Program-made: the position numbers and the translations under genes | Assembly (NCBI GenBank): GCA_002840055.1 | Contig: PGZJ01000001.1 | Span: 186,001-250,000 of the forward strand | Length of the DNA stretch: 64,000 nt | DNA from: Gammaproteobacteria bacterium HGW-Gammaproteobacteria-11 | GTDB lineage: Bacteria; Pseudomonadota; Gammaproteobacteria; Pseudomonadales; Pseudomonadaceae | Direction of reading: 5' to 3' | Notes under the pieces: model-generated | Told to the model about the DNA's origin: nothing | Databases searched by the model: none | What the model saw: the letters and a program-made list of their open reading frames with translations, nothing else | In this document: positions 3,718-39,681 of the stretch, in pieces | Numbering within the stretch: position 1 is the stretch's first letter | How the letters are laid out: each line of letters begins with the position of its first letter

Positions 3718-4872
3718 ATGCCTGTCAGTCACACCCCCCGCAAGGGACGCATTCTATTTATCGCAATCAGTCTATTGATTGCCGGCGCAGCCGGCTGGAC
3801 GCTGCTGGGCAATAACTCAAGTGCACCGGAGTTCAATACGGCGGACGTCATTCGTGGTGATATTGAAGACAGCATTACCGCGCTGGGCACACTGGAGCCC
3901 TTGAACTACGTGGATGTCGGCACCCAGGTATCTGGGCAGTTGAAAGTATTGCATGTGGAGCTTGGCGATCAGGTTGAAGCCGGCCAACTGTTGGCGGAAA
4001 TAGACCCTACCCTGTATCTGGCACAGGTAGAAGCCAGTACCGCTCAGCTGGCCAACCAGCAGGCGCAGCTCAAGGATCGCGAAGCACAATATGATCTGGC
4101 CCGCCTGCAGGCGCAACGCCAGCGCAACCTGTTTGCCGAGGATGCCACCAGCCGCGAATCTCTGGAAACCGCAGAGGCCACACTGCGTTCGGCGGCAGCC
4201 CAGGTCGATGTATTGAAAGCTCAGATTCGTCAGACCGAGTCGGCACTCAAGGGTGACCAGGCTGACCTCAATTACACCCGTATCTATGCACCAATGGACG
4301 GCACCATAGTCCAGCAACTGGCCAATCAGGGCCAGACCCTGAATGCCAACCAGACAGCACCCATCGTGGTACAGATCGCCGACCTCTCGACCATGCGCGT
4401 GCGCACCCAGGTCTCCGAAGCGGATATCAGCAAACTGCAGGTCGGCATGCCCGCCTACTTTTCCACCCTCGGCCAGCCCCAGCGTCGCTGGGAAGGCGAG
4501 TTACGGCAGATACTGCCAACACCCGAGGTGATCAACAATGTAGTGCTGTTCAATGCGCTGTTTGACGTACCCAATCCCGATGGTGAGCTCTTGCCACAGA
4601 TGAGCGCCCAGGTCTTTTTCATCAATGCCTCAGCCGAAGATGTTTTGCTTATCCCCGCTGCGGCCCTGCGCTCGCAGGGCAGTGGAGAACAGGAAATCCA
4701 GGTTCTGGATGCGCAGAATCGGGTACAAACCCGACAGGTGCGCATCGGCGTACGCAACCGGGTCATGGCCGAGGTGCTTGAGGGCCTTGAGCAGGGAGAA
4801 AGGGTCATTACCGGACAGGTATCATCAACCCAGAACGGCAGCACAACCGAGCGCCCAAGGCGGTTCATGTGA
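3718..4872 (+). CDS. macA: MacA-type periplasmic adaptor of a tripartite ABC exporter
   Basis: 384 residues. An N-terminal membrane anchor (about 11-29) is followed by lipoyl/barrel-sandwich half-motifs ([25 protein letters not shown]), a long Gln/Ala-rich alpha-helical hairpin (about 100-190), and the second half ([23 protein letters not shown]) leading into beta-barrel and membrane-proximal domains. This is the order in MacA/HlyD adaptors, which bridge the inner-membrane ABC protein to a TolC-like duct. The gene overlaps macB by 4 bp, and macB runs into the outer-membrane factor, so all three parts of one pump are encoded together. In pseudomonads such operons include PvdRT-OpmQ; the substrate here is not shown. 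Confidence 0.9.
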
Positions 4873-6824
4873 GCCAGCCCATGCCGCTGATCCGTCTGCG
4901 AGGCATTGGTAAAACCTTTCAGAACGGTGAAATTGCCACCACAGTGCTGCATGAGGTAGCCCTGGATATTCAAGCCGGTGAGTTTGTCGCCATCATGGGT
5001 GCCTCCGGCTCAGGCAAATCAACCCTGATGAACATTCTCGGCTGTCTTGACCGACCAAGCACCGGTGAATACCTGTTCGACGGCCAGAATATTGCCGACT
5101 TCGACAAGGACGCCTTGGCCAGCCTGCGCCGCAGCGCCTTTGGTTTCATCTTTCAAAGCTACAACCTGATTGGCTCAGCCAGCGCGCTGGAGAACGTCGA
5201 AGTCCCGGCGATTTATGCCGGCCTACCCCGTGAACAGCGGCATCAGCGTGCCGAACAACTGCTTAACGACCTTGGACTCGGCGAACGCCTGAACAACCGC
5301 CCCAGCCAATTGTCGGGCGGCCAGCAACAGCGGGTTTCGATTGCCAGGGCCTTGATGAACGACGCCCGCATTATCCTCGCCGATGAGCCCACGGGGGCAC
5401 TCGACAGCCAGAGCGGACAGGATGTGCTGGGCCTGCTGAAACAACTGCATGCCCGTGGCAAGACCGTCATTGTGATTACCCACGACCGCGATGTTGCCGC
5501 CCAGGCCGAACGCCAGATCGAGATTCGTGACGGCCGCATTCTGCATGACAGCGGCGCAGCCAAGCCGTTACCACAGACTGAGCCTGCAGCACTGGGCACA
5601 ACCACAGAGCACGCCGGAAGTGTATTCTTCAGCGATGCCGCAGAGGCTGTACGCATGGCCATCAGGGCCCTGCGCGCCAATCTGTTTCGTACGGTGCTGA
5701 CGCTGCTCGGCATTGTTATCGGCGTCGCCTCGGTGGTGGTCATGCTGGCAGTCGGCAACGGTGCGCGCCAGGAAGTGGTCGACCGCATCAGTTCGATGGG
5801 CACCCATCTATTGCTGGTGCGTCCCGGCGCACCCAACACCCGGCGCTCCCTGGACGGCTCAACCAACACCCTGGTGCCCAGCGATGCGGCACTCGCAGCG
5901 CAGATCGACAATGTCAGGGTTGCCGTTCCGGAGATGAATGGCCGGGTGACCGTGCGCAGTGGCAATACCGACTACCAGACGCAAGTGACCGCCACCAGCG
6001 CCGATCTGCCGCTGGCCCGGGACTGGGAGGTGGGCAACGGCGTATTCATTGATGACAACGATGACCAGCGTTATGCCGCCGTAACCGTGCTGGGCAGCAC
6101 GGTAGCGAGCAACCTGTTTGGCAAGGCTGATCCTCTGGGTGAGTACATACTGATCAACAATGTGCCCTTTCAGGTTATTGGTGTCATGGCGGAAAAGGGT
6201 GCAGCGCCCTGGGGTGGCGATCAGGATGATGTGGTCTTTGTGCCGTTGAATACCGGCAGCCTGAGACTGATTGGCCAGCGGCATCTAAACTCGGTGACCA
6301 TTCTGATCGAGGATCTGAGCCAGGCCGAACTGACCCAGGAAGCAGTTCGACAAGCCCTGCTGCAGGCGCATGCCGGCGTCGAGGATTTTCAGATTCGCAA
6401 CATGGCCTCGTTGCTGGAGAATGTAGCGGAAACGCAGAACACCTTTACCGTACTACTGGGCTCAATTGCCGCCATATCACTGCTGGTCGGCGGCATTGGC
6501 GTGATGAACATCATGTTGGTCAACGTGACTGAGCGAACCCGGGAAATTGGCATCCGTGTCGCGACTGGCGCGCGGACCCGCAACATACTCCAGCAGTTCA
6601 TTGTCGAAGCCCTGGTGGTCTCGGCCATCGGCGGTGCTCTTGGCGTCATCATTGGCCTGGCCTTTGCCGGCGGACTGCAGTTTCTGGGCACGGCCATCGA
6701 GTTCACAACCGGCCCGGTGGTGCTGGCCTTCGGTTGCGCCTTTGCCACCGGCCTGATTTTCGGTTACATGCCGGCGCACAAGGCCGCGCATCTTGATCCA
6801 GTGGTGGCTCTCAGTGCTGACTAA
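4869..6824 (+). CDS. macB: MacB-type ABC exporter: ATPase fused to FtsX-like permease
   Basis: 651 residues. The N-terminal ABC domain has Walker [10 protein letters not shown], signature LSGGQQQR, Walker [12 protein letters not shown] and the switch histidine ITHD. It is followed by one transmembrane helix (about 275-295), a large periplasmic MacB_PCD domain, and three C-terminal helices of the FtsX fold ([23 protein letters not shown] is diagnostic). MacB is a mechanotransmitting exporter that moves periplasmic substrates through a TolC-like duct. The GTG at 4869 overlaps the macA stop and has AAGG 8 nt upstream. An ATG at 4881 is possible but has no ribosome site. Confidence 0.93.
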
Positions 6825-13323: not shown

Positions 13324-14289
13324 GTGAGCGCATATCACCACCAGATGCTGACCCTGAGTGACATTAGGCTCAGTCTGTATTGTTCAGGCCCGGAAACCGG
13401 TCCGATCGTCTGGTTGCTGCACGGTTTCCCGGAGTGCTGGTACTCCTGGCGCCATCAAATCGATGCCTTGAGTGCCGCCGGCTACCGTGTCTACGCGCCG
13501 GAAATGCGCGGTTACGGTCAGACCAGCGCGCCGCAGGATGCTGAAGCCTATGACCTGATGTCACTGTGCGGCGATATTCGCCAGGCCATGGACCAGCTTG
13601 GCCATCAACGTGTGGCCATGATCGGTCATGACTGGGGTGCACCCGTGGCCTGGCATCTGGCGTTACTTGAGCCAGAGCGTGTTCAACTGGTCTGTGGCCT
13701 GTCCGTACCCTATGGTGGCCGCCCCAGAAAGCCGGCGATCAATATGATCCGCGAGCTGTACCAGGACCGTTTCCACTACATGCTGTACTTTCAGAAGCCG
13801 GGGCTGGCCGAGGCGGAGATGGCGGAAAATATTCCGCGCACCATGCGTTTGATGATGCATGGCATGTCAGCCTCAAAGACGGGCAATGCGCTGGTGCAGG
13901 ACAAAGCGGCCGATGCCCGCTGGCTGGACGACCGAGAGGACCCGGGACACCCCCCTGCCTGGTGCCCGGACGAGGCCTTTGCCGTTTACGTGCAAACCTT
14001 CGAGCGCAGCGGCTTCCATGGCCCGGTCAACTGGTACCGCAATTTTGAGCGCAACTGGGCGCTGACCGAGCCACTGGCAGGCCAACAGATACTGCAACCG
14101 GCGCTGTTCCTGATTGGCGATCGCGACCCGGTCGGTGAGCTGGAAGCCTATACCATTCGCAAGATGCCCGAGGTCATTCCGCGGGTGGAACAGCAGGTAC
14201 TCGTCGACTGCGGGCACTGGATTCAGGCCGAGAAGCCAGATCAGGTCAATCTTGCCCTGCTCGACTGGCTCAAGCGTCATCACTACTGA
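13324..14289 (+). CDS. Alpha/beta hydrolase, soluble epoxide hydrolase type
   Basis: 321 residues with epoxide-hydrolase features: oxyanion HGFPE (33-37), nucleophile Asp103 in GHDWG, the cap-domain segment FHGPVNWYRN, and catalytic His near 298 in DCGHW. Asp as nucleophile in the H-D-W-G elbow fits epoxide hydrolases or haloalkane dehalogenases, and HGFPE favours the former. The GTG at 13324 has GAGGTG 5 nt upstream. The next gene, 18 bp downstream, is a probable halohydrin dehalogenase whose product would be an epoxide. The pair suggests a short haloalcohol-to-diol pathway. Confidence 0.85.
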   Translation: MSAYHHQMLTLSDIRLSLYCSGPETGPIVWLLHGFPECWYSWRHQIDALSAAGYRVYAPEMRGYGQTSAPQDAEAYDLMSLCGDIRQAMDQLGHQRVAMIGHDWGAPVAWHLALLEPERVQLVCGLSVPYGGRPRKPAINMIRELYQDRFHYMLYFQKPGLAEAEMAENIPRTMRLMMHGMSASKTGNALVQDKAADARWLDDREDPGHPPAWCPDEAFAVYVQTFERSGFHGPVNWYRNFERNWALTEPLAGQQILQPALFLIGDRDPVGELEAYTIRKMPEVIPRVEQQVLVDCGHWIQAEKPDQVNLALLDWLKRHHY

Positions 14290-14307
14290 GAAGCACAAAG
14301 GATCCGC

Positions 14308-14988
14308 ATGAGCCACGCCAACCTGCATAACAAACGCATTCTATTGACCCAGGCAGACGCCTTTATGGGACCCGCTCTGCTCGCTGAACTGGCAGCTTGC
14401 GGTGCCAGCGTAGTGGCAGACCAGAGCGATCTGAGTACACGCGCAGCGGTCGATGCCCTGCTTGAGCGCAGTGGCGAAATCGATGTACTGGTGGCCAACC
14501 TGGGTATTCCAGCACCCAGCACCCCAGCCGATCAGGTCAGCGATGAGGAGTGGCAACGGGCCTTTGCCCATATGGTTACCCCCTTGCAGCAACTGGTGCG
14601 CGGCCTGCTGCCACAGATGATCGCCCGGGGGCACGGCAAGATTCTGCTGATGGGCAGCGCATCGGCACTGCGCGGGATGAAACGCGCCTCCAGCTACAGT
14701 GCCGCACGCGGCGCACAACTGGCCTATATCCGTGCCGTTGGGGTGGAGGTTGCCAAGCACAACATTCAGGTCAATGCGATTGCCCAGAACTTTGTCGACA
14801 ACCCGACCTATTTCCCCGCCGAGATTCAAGCCAATCCGGCCTTCCAGGCGCGGCTGCAACGCGAGGTCCCACTAGGTCGACTGGTCAGCGCCAGCGAGGA
14901 TGCCCAATTTGCTGCCTATCTATGCAGTGACGCGGCCAACTGCTTTGTCGGCCAGATCTTCCCGGTATGTGGTGGCTGGGCCGACTGA
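14308..14988 (+). CDS. Probable halohydrin dehalogenase (SDR-related, S-Y-R triad)
   Basis: 226 residues with SDR fold but both published halohydrin-dehalogenase signatures. T14-X4-F19-X-G21 replaces the glycine-rich NAD(P) loop of true dehydrogenases. Ser117-X12-Tyr130-X3-Arg134 has Arg where redox SDRs have Lys. Further similarity to the HheC type, as recalled, is the NAIAQNFVDNPTYFP segment forming the halide side of the pocket. Such enzymes convert vicinal haloalcohols to epoxides plus halide without a cofactor, reversibly, and accept other nucleophiles. It lies directly behind an epoxide hydrolase. The alternative, a non-catalytic SDR, is less likely with both motifs intact. Confidence 0.8.
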   Translation: MSHANLHNKRILLTQADAFMGPALLAELAACGASVVADQSDLSTRAAVDALLERSGEIDVLVANLGIPAPSTPADQVSDEEWQRAFAHMVTPLQQLVRGLLPQMIARGHGKILLMGSASALRGMKRASSYSAARGAQLAYIRAVGVEVAKHNIQVNAIAQNFVDNPTYFPAEIQANPAFQARLQREVPLGRLVSASEDAQFAAYLCSDAANCFVGQIFPVCGGWAD

Positions 14989-36626: not shown

Positions 36627-37487
36627 TCAGGCCGCAGTATGCCCAAGGCGCCAATCAAAGGCCACCCTGACCTGATTTCCCAATGCGTTGAACTGCACAT
36701 CGGCCGCTAACGCCCTGACCAGCGCCAACCCTCGTCCGCTGTATGTTTCTGCCTGCTCACCGGGGGGTTGTGGAGCGAAACCTGGTCCGCTGTCCTCTAC
36801 CTGAATCACCAGCCGTCCACCCGCTTCGTCTGGACAGTGATCGAGGACAACGCGAATCCAGCCCTGGTCCAGTGATGACAGCCGCAGGTTACGCTCACGA
36901 TAGTATCGACTGAATCCGTCCGCATTACCCTTGAGCGACGAATCCAGCTGCAACAACCCATGCTCCAGGGCATTACTGTACAGCTCGCTGAGAATAATGA
37001 AGAGGCTGCCGGCATGCATACGCAAGCCGGGTACCTCCATCAGCACCTTGTTCAAAAAAGGCAGCGGGTTGTGGTCGCGGATTGAGGCCGCGCGAAAGGT
37101 GTAATCCAGCACCCAGTCCTGAGCTTCAAGCTGCCTGGCATCGGGTTGCAACAAGCTGGTAATAGGCAGCGGATGTCGCTGCATGACCACTTCGAGCAGG
37201 CTGACATCGTCTTCCCTGCTGCCATGAAAGGCCTCCAGCGCCAACAGCAAACCTTCGAACAGCGCATCCGGTTGACCGACATGTGCCGTGATCACATCAA
37301 GTACGCGCTGATCACCAAACTGGGTACCTTCGGCATTACGACTTTCTATGATGCCATCAGTCCAGCACAACAGCCGCTCACCATCGGCCATGGGCAAGAC
37401 CACGGGGGTCGGATCGAAACGTTCGCTGTTGACCACCGCCAAGGGCAGATGGGTGGAAGGAATACGATGCAATAACGCGCCTTCACG
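36627..37487 (-). pseudogene. C-terminal remnant of a fused response-regulator/SpoIIE phosphatase (HsbR-like), interrupted by prophage
   Basis: About 286 residues remain: the last part of a PP2C/SpoIIE phosphatase domain (STHLPLAVVNSERFDPTPV, GERLLCWTDGIIESRN, REDDVSLLEV) and a GHKL anti-sigma-type ATPase domain (ELYSNALEHGLL, IQVEDSGPGFAP, GRGLALVRAL). The receiver and first half of the phosphatase are absent. The coding similarity stops at Arg (codon 37485-37487), exactly where TGTAG and phage-end repeats begin; beyond that the frame reads phage-end DNA to a stop near 37574. The 5' part should lie beyond the far prophage end. A TTG at 37470-37472 could restart translation but would give a non-functional fragment. 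Confidence 0.8.
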
Positions 37488-37529
37488 TGTAGCCGCGCGC
37501 GATAAATCTACCGGCGCGGCGCGATAAAT
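37488..37529. repeat. Prophage right end with tandem transposase-site-like repeats
   Basis: The phage end begins 5'-TGTAGCC, matching the TG...CA termini of Mu-like elements. GCGCGATAAAT occurs at 37497-37507 and again at 37519-37529, exactly 22 bp (two helical turns) apart, as expected for end-binding sites of a Mu-type transposase. The adjoining host bases TCACG (37483-37487) should be duplicated at the other end. Confidence 0.7.
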
Positions 37530-37566: not shown

Positions 37567-38163
37567 TCAGTTTATAGACTTCAGGGGCTTGGGATCAAAC
37601 GCTGGCTCCCAGGTTGCCAGAGCCGCTAACTGTTCCTGACCAGCCGGAACACCCCCAGACTCACAAGCCTCCAGCAAGTCAGCAAACATGCGAACACCCA
37701 TAGGGCCAAGGTCTCGCTTCCAGAGAGCGGCCGCAGTGTCGTCTGGCCGGACTATGCACCAGTCCTGGTAGATGATGGGGCCGGAATCGACCCCGTCATC
37801 CATCCAGTAGAGAGTGCCGCCGGCGACGGGCTCGCGCATGTGTATCGTCCACCTCACCGCGTCACGGCCCCGGTGCAGGGGCAGCAGCGAGGGATGATAG
37901 CCAGCACACCCAAGCGCCGCCATAGAACGTGCACTGGCACCAATATATGCATGGGCGTGCGCGGCAATGAGAAGGTCACAGCGGGGCACGTGCTCTGCTT
38001 CTAACCTCCGCGCGGACAGCACCGGTATTGAATGAACAGCTGCGGCGGCGGCAAGGCTGTCGCCCAAGGGCGCGACTACCTGCAGCACCCGGTGTCCACG
38101 CTGCAGGCAGACGTCAAGAACGACGCGGCCCAGCCATTTCTGGCCAACTATGACTATTCGCAT
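37567..38163 (-). CDS. Formyltransferase-family protein of the phage modification cassette
   Basis: 198 residues resembling the catalytic domain of Fmt/ArnA/GART enzymes that use N10-formyltetrahydrofolate. HPSLLP (90-95), RG at 98-99, and MDDGVDSGPI with Asp126 are present. The usual catalytic Asn two residues before the His is Gly88, so the chemistry may differ. GGGGG precedes the ATG at 38163, which overlaps the ABC-GNAT gene by 10 bp. It is the last gene before the phage end, where Mu has mom. I infer that it supplies or modifies a group added to DNA; a substrate is not shown. Confidence 0.75.
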   Translation of the reverse strand: MRIVIVGQKWLGRVVLDVCLQRGHRVLQVVAPLGDSLAAAAAVHSIPVLSARRLEAEHVPRCDLLIAAHAHAYIGASARSMAALGCAGYHPSLLPLHRGRDAVRWTIHMREPVAGGTLYWMDDGVDSGPIIYQDWCIVRPDDTAAALWKRDLGPMGVRMFADLLEACESGGVPAGQEQLAALATWEPAFDPKPLKSIN

Positions 38164-39272
38164 GTTTCCCCCAGATATCTGAAGCCCTGTACAGCCCGGA
38201 AGTGGCCACCGAAGCCGCTGCCTGCCTTGGGTTTGCCTAGACGAGCGGCGCTGGCATGAAGTGATGCCGCACTCTTCGCCTTGTTACCTCCGACCAAGTT
38301 AGCCGAGACCTGCGTCCAACGTCGGTCGCGCCGAAGCGCGGCCGCCAGGCCGGGGTGGCTGGTGTGAAATAGTGTCCTAAGGGGGAGCCGATGCCTGTTA
38401 TCTCCAGCAAGCCAGAGCTCGCAAACAGCATTAAGGAACCGCATGCCAACGCCCGCGCCCTGCCACTCTGGCATCACAACCAGCCGGCAGGCTCTAGCCT
38501 CAATAAGGCCAGGCCGGGTTGCAAACGCGACGTGGGCGACCGGTTGGCCGTCAACCCAACCGGTGTAGTGCGTTGCCGCAACCATGGGCGGGAGTTTCAG
38601 ATAGTGATGCTCTTCAAAGGGGGCATAGTCGCGCTGAGCAGCTTGGCGTACCTCGAGCTGAATGCATGGCCGTCGCCGGTGCCACCCCCTGAGGAATTCA
38701 CCGGACGCGGTGTCATACACCCAATCCGGCTGCACCCAGTCGAGAATGTCGTAGTGGCACGACAGGAGAACAACTTGCCCTGCAGTTCGCCGCCATGCTT
38801 TAGCGAATGCCCCCGCTCCGATCTGGGCGATCTGCCGATCGATTACAGAGCTGAACTCGTCGACCACAGCAAGACGAGGCGCCTCGCAGACCAAGCGGGC
38901 CAGCGTTGCGCGAAACTGCTCACCCATCGAAAGCACTTGGTAAGGGCGGAGCCAGGCAGGCACAGACCCCAGCCCGACAGCAGAAAGCGCGGCAGGTACC
39001 TGGTCAAACGCCTGATCTGGAGCAATAGCATCAATGATCGGCTGATCTTTGGACCAGCGGGGGTTATAAGGCGCCTTGAACTTGCGGCCGATGCTGCTTT
39101 TACCCGAGCCGGATGGGCCAACTATCACCCCAATCTGCCATGACATGTCTTCAATCGGCAGATCGGCATCAATCGTGACCTCGTTGCCCTGGTCGACATT
39201 GAACAGGGACTTGACCCTCGCGGCGCGGTAGCTATTTGAATCCGGGCAGTGGTGCTGGATATGAATTTTCAT
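38154..39272 (-). CDS. ABC-type ATPase fused to GNAT acyltransferase (Mom-like position)
   Basis: 372 residues from ATG 39272, which overlaps the stop of the 51-aa ORF (ATGA). Residues ~45-195 form a soluble ABC ATPase: Walker A GPSGSGKSS (52-60), signature LSMGEQ (114-119), Walker B LAVVDEF (134-140), switch His173. Residues ~205-370 form a GNAT domain with acyl-CoA loop VMPEWQGAGVG (267-276) and an EHHYL motif (221-225). Mu Mom, which adds a carbamoylmethyl-type group to adenine, is also a GNAT relative but has no ATPase. There are no membrane segments, so this is not a transporter. A DNA-modifying role rests on the com-like context. Confidence 0.75.
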   Translation of the reverse strand: MKIHIQHHCPDSNSYRAARVKSLFNVDQGNEVTIDADLPIEDMSWQIGVIVGPSGSGKSSIGRKFKAPYNPRWSKDQPIIDAIAPDQAFDQVPAALSAVGLGSVPAWLRPYQVLSMGEQFRATLARLVCEAPRLAVVDEFSSVIDRQIAQIGAGAFAKAWRRTAGQVVLLSCHYDILDWVQPDWVYDTASGEFLRGWHRRRPCIQLEVRQAAQRDYAPFEEHHYLKLPPMVAATHYTGWVDGQPVAHVAFATRPGLIEARACRLVVMPEWQGAGVGMRFLNAVCELWLAGDNRHRLPLRTLFHTSHPGLAAALRRDRRWTQVSANLVGGNKAKSAASLHASAARLGKPKAGSGFGGHFRAVQGFRYLGETCE

Positions 39273-39424
39273 ACGCACACCACCCTTACTTTATGCCCGC
39301 TACTCTTGAGCGTTTCGAAGGCCCGCTGCTGGGCGGTCTCATCTGGACAGATAATGATGACGCCGAACTGGGGCTTATATTTAAACCCGTTCTGACCCGG
39401 TGGTTGTTTCGCTTGTTTTGCCAT
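39269..39424 (-). CDS. Small ORF, 51 aa, between com and the ABC-GNAT gene
   Basis: ATG 39424 has a perfect GGAGG 5 nt upstream. The protein starts MAKQAKQPPGQNGFKYKPQ, continues FGVIIICPDETAQQRAFETL and ends VRVVCV. The first 44 nt overlap the 3' end of com in another frame, and the stop overlaps the ABC-GNAT start (ATGA). A beta-alpha-beta pattern suggests a small folded domain. I recall similar small ORFs next to modification-type genes in other phages but give no function. Its Shine-Dalgarno is sequestered by a hairpin. Confidence 0.75.
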   Translation of the reverse strand: MAKQAKQPPGQNGFKYKPQFGVIIICPDETAQQRAFETLKSSGHKVRVVCV

Positions 39425-39587
39425 GATGGCCTCCACAATTGGCGCTCAGTGGCGCGCATGTTTGGAGGCTCATGGCCTTCTGATGGTTGAGTGTGCCGCA
39501 GCGCGGACACTTGATCTCGATGACGCTTGCTGAGCTGGTTTTTGCCAGCATTCGATTACAACTACCGCAACGTAGTATTTTCAACAT
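39381..39587 (-). CDS. com: Com-like zinc-finger translational activator
   Basis: 68 residues from ATG 39587 (AAGG 8 nt upstream). Cys7-X2-Cys10 (RCGSCNRML) and the later EIKCPRCGT pair form a zinc finger very like phage Mu Com (RCKNCNKLL ... EIRCPRC). In Mu, Com binds the com-mom mRNA and opens a hairpin that hides the mom start. Here the 3' end of com overlaps the next ORF by 44 nt, and a hairpin covers that ORF's ribosome site, so the same control is likely. Confidence 0.88.
   Translation of the reverse strand: MLKILRCGSCNRMLAKTSSASVIEIKCPRCGTLNHQKAMSLQTCAPLSANCGGHHGKTSETTTGSERV
39423..39473 (-). promoter_or_regulatory. Ribosome-site-sequestering hairpin at the com/51-aa ORF junction
   Basis: In the minus-strand RNA, GCCTCCA (39463-39469) pairs perfectly with TGGAGGC (39429-39435), which contains the GGAGG of the 51-aa ORF. 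ATGA (39470-39473) can pair with TCAT (39423-39426), reaching into the start codon, across a 2-nt bulge. It resembles the inhibitory stem of Mu mom mRNA that Com melts. Confidence 0.7.
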
Positions 39588-39681
39588 CTGCAAAGCCTTT
39601 TCATTTTCTGATAGCCTTGCCCGGCACTCGCGAGTGTAGCGGGTCTTGGCTGGCTTGCAGCTCAGTTCTGCAGGTTGGCGG

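Follow-up and report, generated by a model that had tools for sequence, protein, structure and literature searches.

The 64,000-nucleotide stretch of Gammaproteobacteria bacterium HGW-Gammaproteobacteria-11 DNA analysed here (hereafter the window) carries a four-gene cassette at the right end of a transposable prophage. We read it as a late DNA-modification operon of a Mu-like transposable phage, lying in its com-mom slot, with a probability of roughly 0.7 that covers the acyl-transfer mechanism as well. In order of transcription, on the minus strand, the cassette consists of com, a 51-amino-acid (aa) open reading frame (ORF), a fusion of an ABC-ATPase with a GNAT acyltransferase (ABC-GNAT), and a formyltransferase, successive genes overlapping by 44, 4 and 10 bp (ATG starts). 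All frames were re-read from the sequence, and the order, strand and overlaps agree with those given in an earlier note on this DNA (the original prediction). Com, its hairpins, the start-hiding fold of the window, the intact ABC-GNAT motifs, the conservation of the cassette, the constant pairing of formyltransferase and ABC-GNAT and the changed formyltransferase active site are read from the sequence, and we infer DNA as the target, acyl transfer, the donor chemistry and protection from restriction. The features concerned are the following.

com: 39381-39587, minus strand; zinc-ribbon translational activator (Com family), ATG start, with a TTG start possible at 39593
51-aa ORF: 39269-39424, minus strand; ATG start, free-standing C-terminal domain of a ParB-like partner, phrog_28816 (E = 4e-22)
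ABC-GNAT: 38154-39272, minus strand; ATG start, ABC-ATPase (residues 1-200) and GNAT acyltransferase (204-372), phrog_11143 (E = 3.5e-157)
Formyltransferase: 37567-38163, minus strand; 198-aa protein with a domain like that of 10-formyltetrahydrofolate dehydrogenase (FDH), PF00551 (Formyl_trans_N; E = 1.3e-15)
Com-type RNA hairpin 1: 39466-39478, minus strand; loop core GCC-AU-GAGC and two further pairs, from a motif scan with stem pairing
Com-type RNA hairpin 2: 39442-39455, minus strand; GCGC-CACUGA-GCGC, at the tip of the start-hiding stem, its loop fitting CC(N)2-3GAG
Predicted translation-inhibitor stem: 39420-39476, minus strand; pairs the Shine-Dalgarno sequence (39430-39434) and the AUG (39424) of the 51-aa ORF
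Transposable prophage: 37488-64000 and on to contig-equivalent 76690, no strand; TG/CA ends, target duplication, head and tail genes, transposase
Target duplication of 6 bp, right copy: 37482-37487, no strand; within a host gene

Genes that follow com in other loci

We collected 100 com loci, namely the best 80 of 207 for the window Com and 20 of 20 for Mu Com, six of which (L097, L108, L127, L129, L161 and L188) had no gene of at least 150 aa in range. Clustering of the gene after com in the remaining 94 loci gave 38 D12 methylases, 32 N6_N4 methylases, 18 Mom proteins, 2 C5 methylases, 2 ABC-GNATs and 2 unrelated genes, the last of which look like false com matches. DNA-methylase or Mom clusters account for 90 of the 94 loci; seven cluster representatives were confirmed by Pfam, and the DPPY motif is present in all 70 members of the two large methylase clusters. 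Since several unrelated enzyme types occupy the com slot, all the identified ones modifying DNA, the ABC-GNAT and its partner would also act on DNA. This census, which we take as a pattern that includes near-duplicates rather than as a tally of independent events, is our strongest evidence for DNA as the likely target of the ABC-GNAT. It lends support, from gene neighbours, to the DNA-modification role that the original prediction had proposed, and the conserved operon very probably serves that purpose.

Com, its RNA hairpins and the start-hiding stem

The Com protein of the window matches PF10122 (Zn_ribbon_Com; E = 2e-18) as well as phrog_6417 and the Mu gpCom family phrog_13819, and its cysteines C9, C12, C29 and C32 are invariant across 20 aligned Com proteins, Mu Com included. 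According to PMC6483171, the target of Mu Com is a hairpin with CC(N)2-3GAG in its loop, adjacent to an RNA structure in which the start of mom is concealed. In the window, both Com-type hairpins lie between the zinc-ribbon coding part of com and the 51-aa ORF, and the start-hiding stem folds at -32.6 kcal/mol (z-score -3.66), a stability equalled by none of 200 shuffled sequences. Hairpin 1 uses bases of the left arm of this stem, the two being mutually exclusive as read from the fold; forming hairpin 1 would therefore open the stem, and this competition suggests a possible route for Com to switch translation on.

We defined a strict hairpin as the Com loop core with a four-pair stem and took its expected frequency from the rest of the same loci. 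Such hairpins occur in 55 of the 69 com-bearing ABC-GNAT loci, where 1.1 matches were expected, and in one of 16 ABC-GNAT loci without com, the exception (L064) possibly holding a com missed by the profile. All 18 com-mom loci have one. With identical stretches removed, the hairpin is still found in 51 of 65 ABC-GNAT, 12 of 12 Mom and 43 of 61 methylase loci. At least two strict hairpins, often spaced by about 20-23 nt, are present in 38 of the 69 com-bearing ABC-GNAT loci, whereas Mu-type loci have one. Both outer pairs are kept, with varied base pairs, in 59 of 68 distinct contexts compared with 39 of 212 background cores elsewhere, and the stem reaches a fifth pair in just one of the 68; outer pairs were tallied by script, the DNA alignment meant for covariation being badly gapped and set aside. 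Since Com and the hairpin also precede D12 and N6_N4 methylases (strict hairpin in 47 of 70; loci L091-L168), Com appears to be a translational switch for the DNA-modification genes of phages in general, beyond Mom. The Com protein, the RNA hairpins and the start-hiding fold of the window together argue for the Com control of the cassette that had been proposed originally.

The com-mom slot was another part of that proposal. The TG/CA ends and the 6-bp target duplication place the prophage right end at 37488, the cassette provides the terminal genes, and the formyltransferase stops 79 bp inside that end; in the Mu record, the corresponding distance from the end of mom to the end of the sequence is 115 bp. 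The two systems are alike in this right-end position, in the overlap of com with the next gene, in the zinc ribbon of Com and in the core and stem length of the Com hairpin. They differ in the effector, which here is the ABC-GNAT with a formyltransferase and a ParB-type tail, no sequence relation between GNAT and Mom having been detected with shallow profiles.

The ABC-GNAT fusion and its relation to Mom

Pfam assigns the fusion to ABC_tran (29.6 against a cut-off of 25) and Acetyltransf_1 (21.2 against 20.7), with Acetyltransf_7 under the cut-off. The Walker A, signature, Walker B with its glutamate, H-loop and QGAGVG motifs are invariant or nearly so among relatives, and both the ATPase and the acyl-CoA-binding motifs are intact in the protein of the window. 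Its AlphaFold model (predicted local distance difference test, pLDDT, 83.9) matches ABC domains and GNATs.

The GNAT had been thought to resemble Mom, and this is not supported beyond the superfamily level. The Mom family (PF25680) is absent from the 11 Pfam families matched by the ABC-GNAT up to E = 1, the same library scoring a true Mom at E = 6e-79. Comparison with 14 Mom proteins by hhalign gave a probability of 0.1% (E = 0.43), both profiles being shallow (effective sequence numbers 2.3 and 2.8). A structure search with the whole fusion gave no Mom chain among the matches listed, which were mostly to the ABC domain (a Mom structure, 8bv8, exists), and we read nothing into this. A diverged Mom was set aside on the same grounds of no Pfam or profile support, the latter from shallow profiles. 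We also rejected a defence system: PADLOC assigned the ABC part to mad3 (E = 2e-7) and AbiLi (E = 0.069) and the 51-aa ORF to SduA (E = 0.0018), hits that we read as generic domains.

The family itself was predicted to acylate DNA by Iyer et al. in 2013, as cited in PMC7824862 (its reference 136), where phage pT24 is named; the ABC-GNAT of the window retrieves a phage pT24 protein at E = 1e-44, although its accession may differ from that in PMC7824862. As far as that citing article conveys the 2013 system, the domain fusion is common to both, whereas the present cassette has an FDH-like formyltransferase, Com control and a ParB part reduced to its tail. In Aeromonas phage PX29 (L388, 3620-5552), a more distant ABC-GNAT precedes two genes that carry no annotation, one of which matches N6_Mtase below the threshold.

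Conservation of the cassette

The same gene order was found again in viral contigs (the best 80 of 505 with an ABC-GNAT) and in bacterial genomes (the best 80 of 209), so it is not a chance arrangement. The viral contigs have the small ORF in 80 of 80 cases, com in 67 of 80 and the formyltransferase in 53 of the 57 that extend 500 nt or more downstream; for genome contigs, the small ORF is present in 78 of 80 and the formyltransferase in 68 of the 78 with room. The original prediction had named a GNAT resembling unrelated acetyltransferases, together with a lack of co-occurrence with com, as evidence against itself. The GNAT does match ordinary acetyltransferases, but com does co-occur, in the viral contigs as stated and in 39 of the 80 genome contigs. 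Seen from the formyltransferase (best 80 of 328 loci), an ABC-GNAT lies immediately upstream in all 76 loci with room, that is, at least 1 kb upstream; three loci lacked room, and L052 was not in the recount. The motif and conservation counts exclude L001 and L087, which duplicate other loci, and L267 was discarded because of a stop codon. L007 and L089, two entries for a single viral contig whose Com and ABC-GNAT are identical (100%) to those of the window, were kept, as was L013, which repeats L002 in the hairpin stretch, in the raw counts.

Genome record titles include Pseudomonas, Achromobacter, Rhizobium, Psychrobacter, Planctomycetota and many Bacteroidota. Among phages, Gordonia phage NHagos has a ParB-like protein, ABC-GNAT and formyltransferase, and Porphyromonas phage 007a the small ORF, ABC-GNAT and formyltransferase. 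A Com above the cut-off was present in 3 of the 369 class genomes, that of the window among them. A class-wide search with phrog_11143 was uninformative, as any ABC domain matches it and 272 of 274 genomes pass the threshold; among the matches listed, our own genome alone exceeded 34 bits.

No formyltransferase-like ORF was seen downstream in the 15 loci lacking that gene that we inspected (L053 with 402 nt of room), and in L333 and L335 the genes after the ABC-GNAT read by eye as ordinary host genes. In L073, a 502-aa ORF (4669-6177) overlaps the end of the ABC-GNAT in the formyltransferase position and has no Pfam match up to E = 0.05. Gordonia phage Jace (L004, 3456-6221) encodes a ParB-like protein, an ABC-GNAT, an aspartate decarboxylase and a 227-aa protein that matches CoA-transferase III, covering only part of this family, and has no formyltransferase. 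This sister cassette may have a different acyl donor, and it points to donors linked to coenzyme A (CoA).

The 51-aa ORF and ParB-like partners

By phmmer, the 51-aa ORF corresponds to the C-terminal 40-50 residues of 185-240-aa proteins found in the same position in relatives (E = 4e-18 to 1e-6 for most, 8e-5 for L385), and these longer partners carry a ParB-like N-terminal part where tested; two distant ParB-like proteins (L004 and L005) went unmatched. The family phrog_28816 was found at the C-terminus of both ParB-like proteins scanned with PHROGs, and Pfam gave no ParB_N match in the 51-aa ORF. By these comparisons, the 51-aa ORF is the free-standing tail of a ParB-like partner. The long form (at least 180 aa) occurs in none of the 40 genome loci with com (window included) and in 10 of the 39 without (Fisher P = 4e-4, uncorrected for kinship); the tree shows 11 changes of state for com and 5 for the long form. 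Since the long, ParB-type form is absent with com and present in some loci without it, the predicted core of the system is the tail domain with the ABC-GNAT, ParB or Com being an add-on. PMC12839542 describes a different DNA modification pathway that involves a ParB-like protein, DpdB. In Porphyromonas phage 007a, the ParB-tail ORF (L006, 3876-4004) is annotated as an anti-CRISPR candidate; its place beside the ABC-GNAT suggests a modification subunit instead.

The formyltransferase and its possible acceptor

The formyltransferase model has a pLDDT of 92.5, and its closest solved relative by both sequence and fold is the hydrolase domain of FDH (4qpd; E = 1.9e-20, template-modelling score 0.86, 30% identity), followed in sequence by methionyl-tRNA formyltransferase (best 6e-13) and PurN (best 3.5e-8). 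Among 57 formyltransferases, which include those of the window and of loci L002, L003 and L006, His90, Ser92 and Asp126 are invariant. In contrast, the asparagine that stands two residues before the histidine in E. coli Fmt and PurN, where it has a catalytic role, is replaced in all 57 (Gly in 53, Ala in 3 and Ile in 1); FDH has Ile at this position of the alignment. The cassette enzyme thus resembles the amine-type formyltransferases (PurN, Fmt and ArnA) in fold and in its His/Asp active site and departs from them at the asparagine, while sharing with the N-terminal domain of FDH the fold, the His-Ser-Asp triad and the lack of this asparagine.

GNATs take acyl-CoA donors. The FDH hydrolase domain uses H106, S108 and D142, with a phosphopantetheine thiol as acceptor, according to PMC4388273 and PMC6802093; a HypX domain, described as FDH-related in the latter, is proposed there, without direct experimental proof, to formylate CoA. 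Unlike HypX and FDH, the cassette enzyme is a stand-alone protein of 198 aa, with neither a C-terminal subdomain nor a fused partner. Because GNATs use acyl-CoA donors, the simplest joint scheme would lead from formyl-tetrahydrofolate (formyl-THF) to formyl-CoA and on to the base. A housekeeping PurN role, as annotated in phage Komp_PAO1_1, is unlikely, given the constant ABC-GNAT pairing and the missing asparagine. Gene 3 of Gordonia phages (L003, 1826-2473 in NHagos), labelled "tRNA-methyltransferase" in several records and hypothetical in NHagos, belongs to the formyltransferase family of the cassette.

Proposed mechanism and points against it

In the mechanism that we propose, Com would bind the hairpins and melt the stem, freeing the 51-aa ORF and, through the overlaps, both enzymes for translation. 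The ABC-GNAT and the ParB-tail subunit would then spend ATP to grip or distort DNA, and the ABC-GNAT would move an acyl group from a CoA donor onto a base, the formyltransferase supplying or finishing this group and the acylated bases shielding virion DNA from restriction. Our first choice for the donor would be a formyl group from 10-formyl-THF loaded on the CoA thiol in a HypX-like manner, the product serving the GNAT.

Several observations weigh against parts of this scheme. (i) The strict hairpin is missing from 14 of the 69 com-bearing ABC-GNAT loci, from 23 of 70 methylase loci and from both C5 loci. (ii) The start-hiding stem is weakly enriched, with at least six pairs in 47 of 69 loci compared with 38% of base-shuffled controls, and the Mu control stretch, which is short of the whole Mu structure, is not unusually stable (z-score +0.90; 160 of 200 shuffles as stable). 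With the 69-locus test weak and the Mu control stretch unremarkable, we dropped the idea of a uniformly conserved stem and restrict the claim to the window and to those relatives in which the stem is visible by eye in the fold. (iii) com is present in just under half of the genome loci (39 of 80), and Com is therefore not part of the core. (iv) The formyltransferase is absent from 10 of 78 genome loci, with eight state changes on the tree, so that the GNAT can act without it. (v) The com loci are the best matches to two Com proteins and contain near-duplicates, the 18 Mom loci representing 15 distinct proteins. (vi) The structural matches listed for the GNAT are ordinary acetyltransferases and RimI. 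(vii) Our literature search found no base-modification measurement for any member of the cassette family. (viii) N-formyl-adenine is chemically labile and would be an awkward mark.

Alternative explanations

One possible course of events, which we put well short of even odds, keeps DNA as the target and changes the order of the chemistry: the GNAT would add an aminoacyl-type group to the base, and the formyltransferase would then cap its free amine, as PurN does on glycinamide ribonucleotide. The relatives of the enzyme that rank next after the FDH domain, tRNA and sugar formyltransferases, have amine acceptors; the aspartate decarboxylase beside the Jace ABC-GNAT could provide beta-alanine; and an accessory, repeatedly lost formyltransferase is what a finishing step would look like, a pattern that fits this order equally well. 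The asparagine of E. coli Fmt and PurN is, however, absent from all 57 formyltransferases, and the closest relative has a thiol acceptor. The direct scheme in its most specific form, in which formyl-CoA is made from 10-formyl-THF, the ATP-driven GNAT formylates an exocyclic amine of DNA to give a programmed N-formyl base, and related cassettes such as that of Jace swap the donor-making enzyme, is a tentative proposal that we think doubtful in its entirety.

We think it unlikely that the target of the cassette, acting late in infection, is RNA or protein (tRNA or RNA polymerase, for instance) and not DNA. TmcA, an ATP-dependent GNAT that acetylates cytidine in tRNA, illustrates that ATP-coupled GNATs of its type act on RNA; it offers an analogy only, as it combines an ATPase and a GNAT on a nucleobase but has a helicase-type ATPase and an RNA substrate. 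RimI, found among the structural matches of the GNAT, acetylates a ribosomal protein, and PMC7824862 describes further phage GNATs with host proteins as reported or predicted substrates. Against such targets stand the com census above, where 90 of 94 loci have DNA modification enzymes, and the small subunit, which is the tail of ParB-like proteins.

We consider it quite improbable that the formyltransferase stands outside modification, doing no more than hydrolysing formyl-THF or contributing to folate metabolism in the infected cell. PMC4388273 notes that the hydrolase domain of FDH is able to release formate, and the cassette enzyme, at 198 aa, lacks a C-terminal acceptor domain; yet the direct ABC-GNAT pairing in 76 of 76 loci, the frames usually overlapping, spans phages and genomes of Proteobacteria and Bacteroidota and Gordonia phages. 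Decayed passenger genes on a defective prophage are very improbable in spite of the fragmentary assembly (75.9% complete, 82 contigs), given four open frames, intact catalytic motifs, both prophage ends and broad conservation.

Significance of the DNA-modification reading

Known phage DNA modifications are mostly of the methyl, hydroxymethyl, glucosyl, amino, deazaguanine or Mom type. If the DNA-modification reading is true, an ATP-coupled acyltransferase with an FDH-like formyltransferase would add folate- and CoA-linked acyl chemistry to this repertoire, in a cassette carried by prophages and phages of Proteobacteria, Bacteroidota and Gordonia. The effector family was predicted earlier, and we found no test of that prediction; its formyltransferase partner is what opens a specific new chemistry to testing. 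Independently, the com slot leads one to expect a DNA target, so that the 2013 prediction becomes testable in isolated phages such as Gordonia phage NHagos and Pseudomonas phage Komp_PAO1_1. Among the matches listed in our literature search, no title or abstract opening combines ABC-GNAT, formyltransferase and com. The N-formyl proposal, if true, would imply a modular acyl-DNA system with interchangeable acyl-CoA suppliers. The Com hairpin, standing over Mom, methylase and ABC-GNAT operons, would offer a simple signature for hidden DNA-modification genes.

The prophage and its insertion site

With the window joined to the adjacent contig stretch, the prophage measures 39.2 kb, from 37488 to contig-equivalent 76690, and is bounded by TG/CA ends and the 6-bp target duplication. 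Phage head and tail genes were identified among the 10 large prophage ORFs scanned, and the other arm has a transposase (phrog_310) and a DNA transposition protein (phrog_296). Among the same 10 ORFs, the small ORFs and most of the left arm being outside the scan, no methylase or restriction gene was found, and to that extent the earlier statement that none lies beside the cassette holds. The prophage interrupts a host gene that, judged by eye, resembles a response regulator with a phosphatase domain (window 36627-37481; L382, about 13690-14720), located near flagellar-looking genes.

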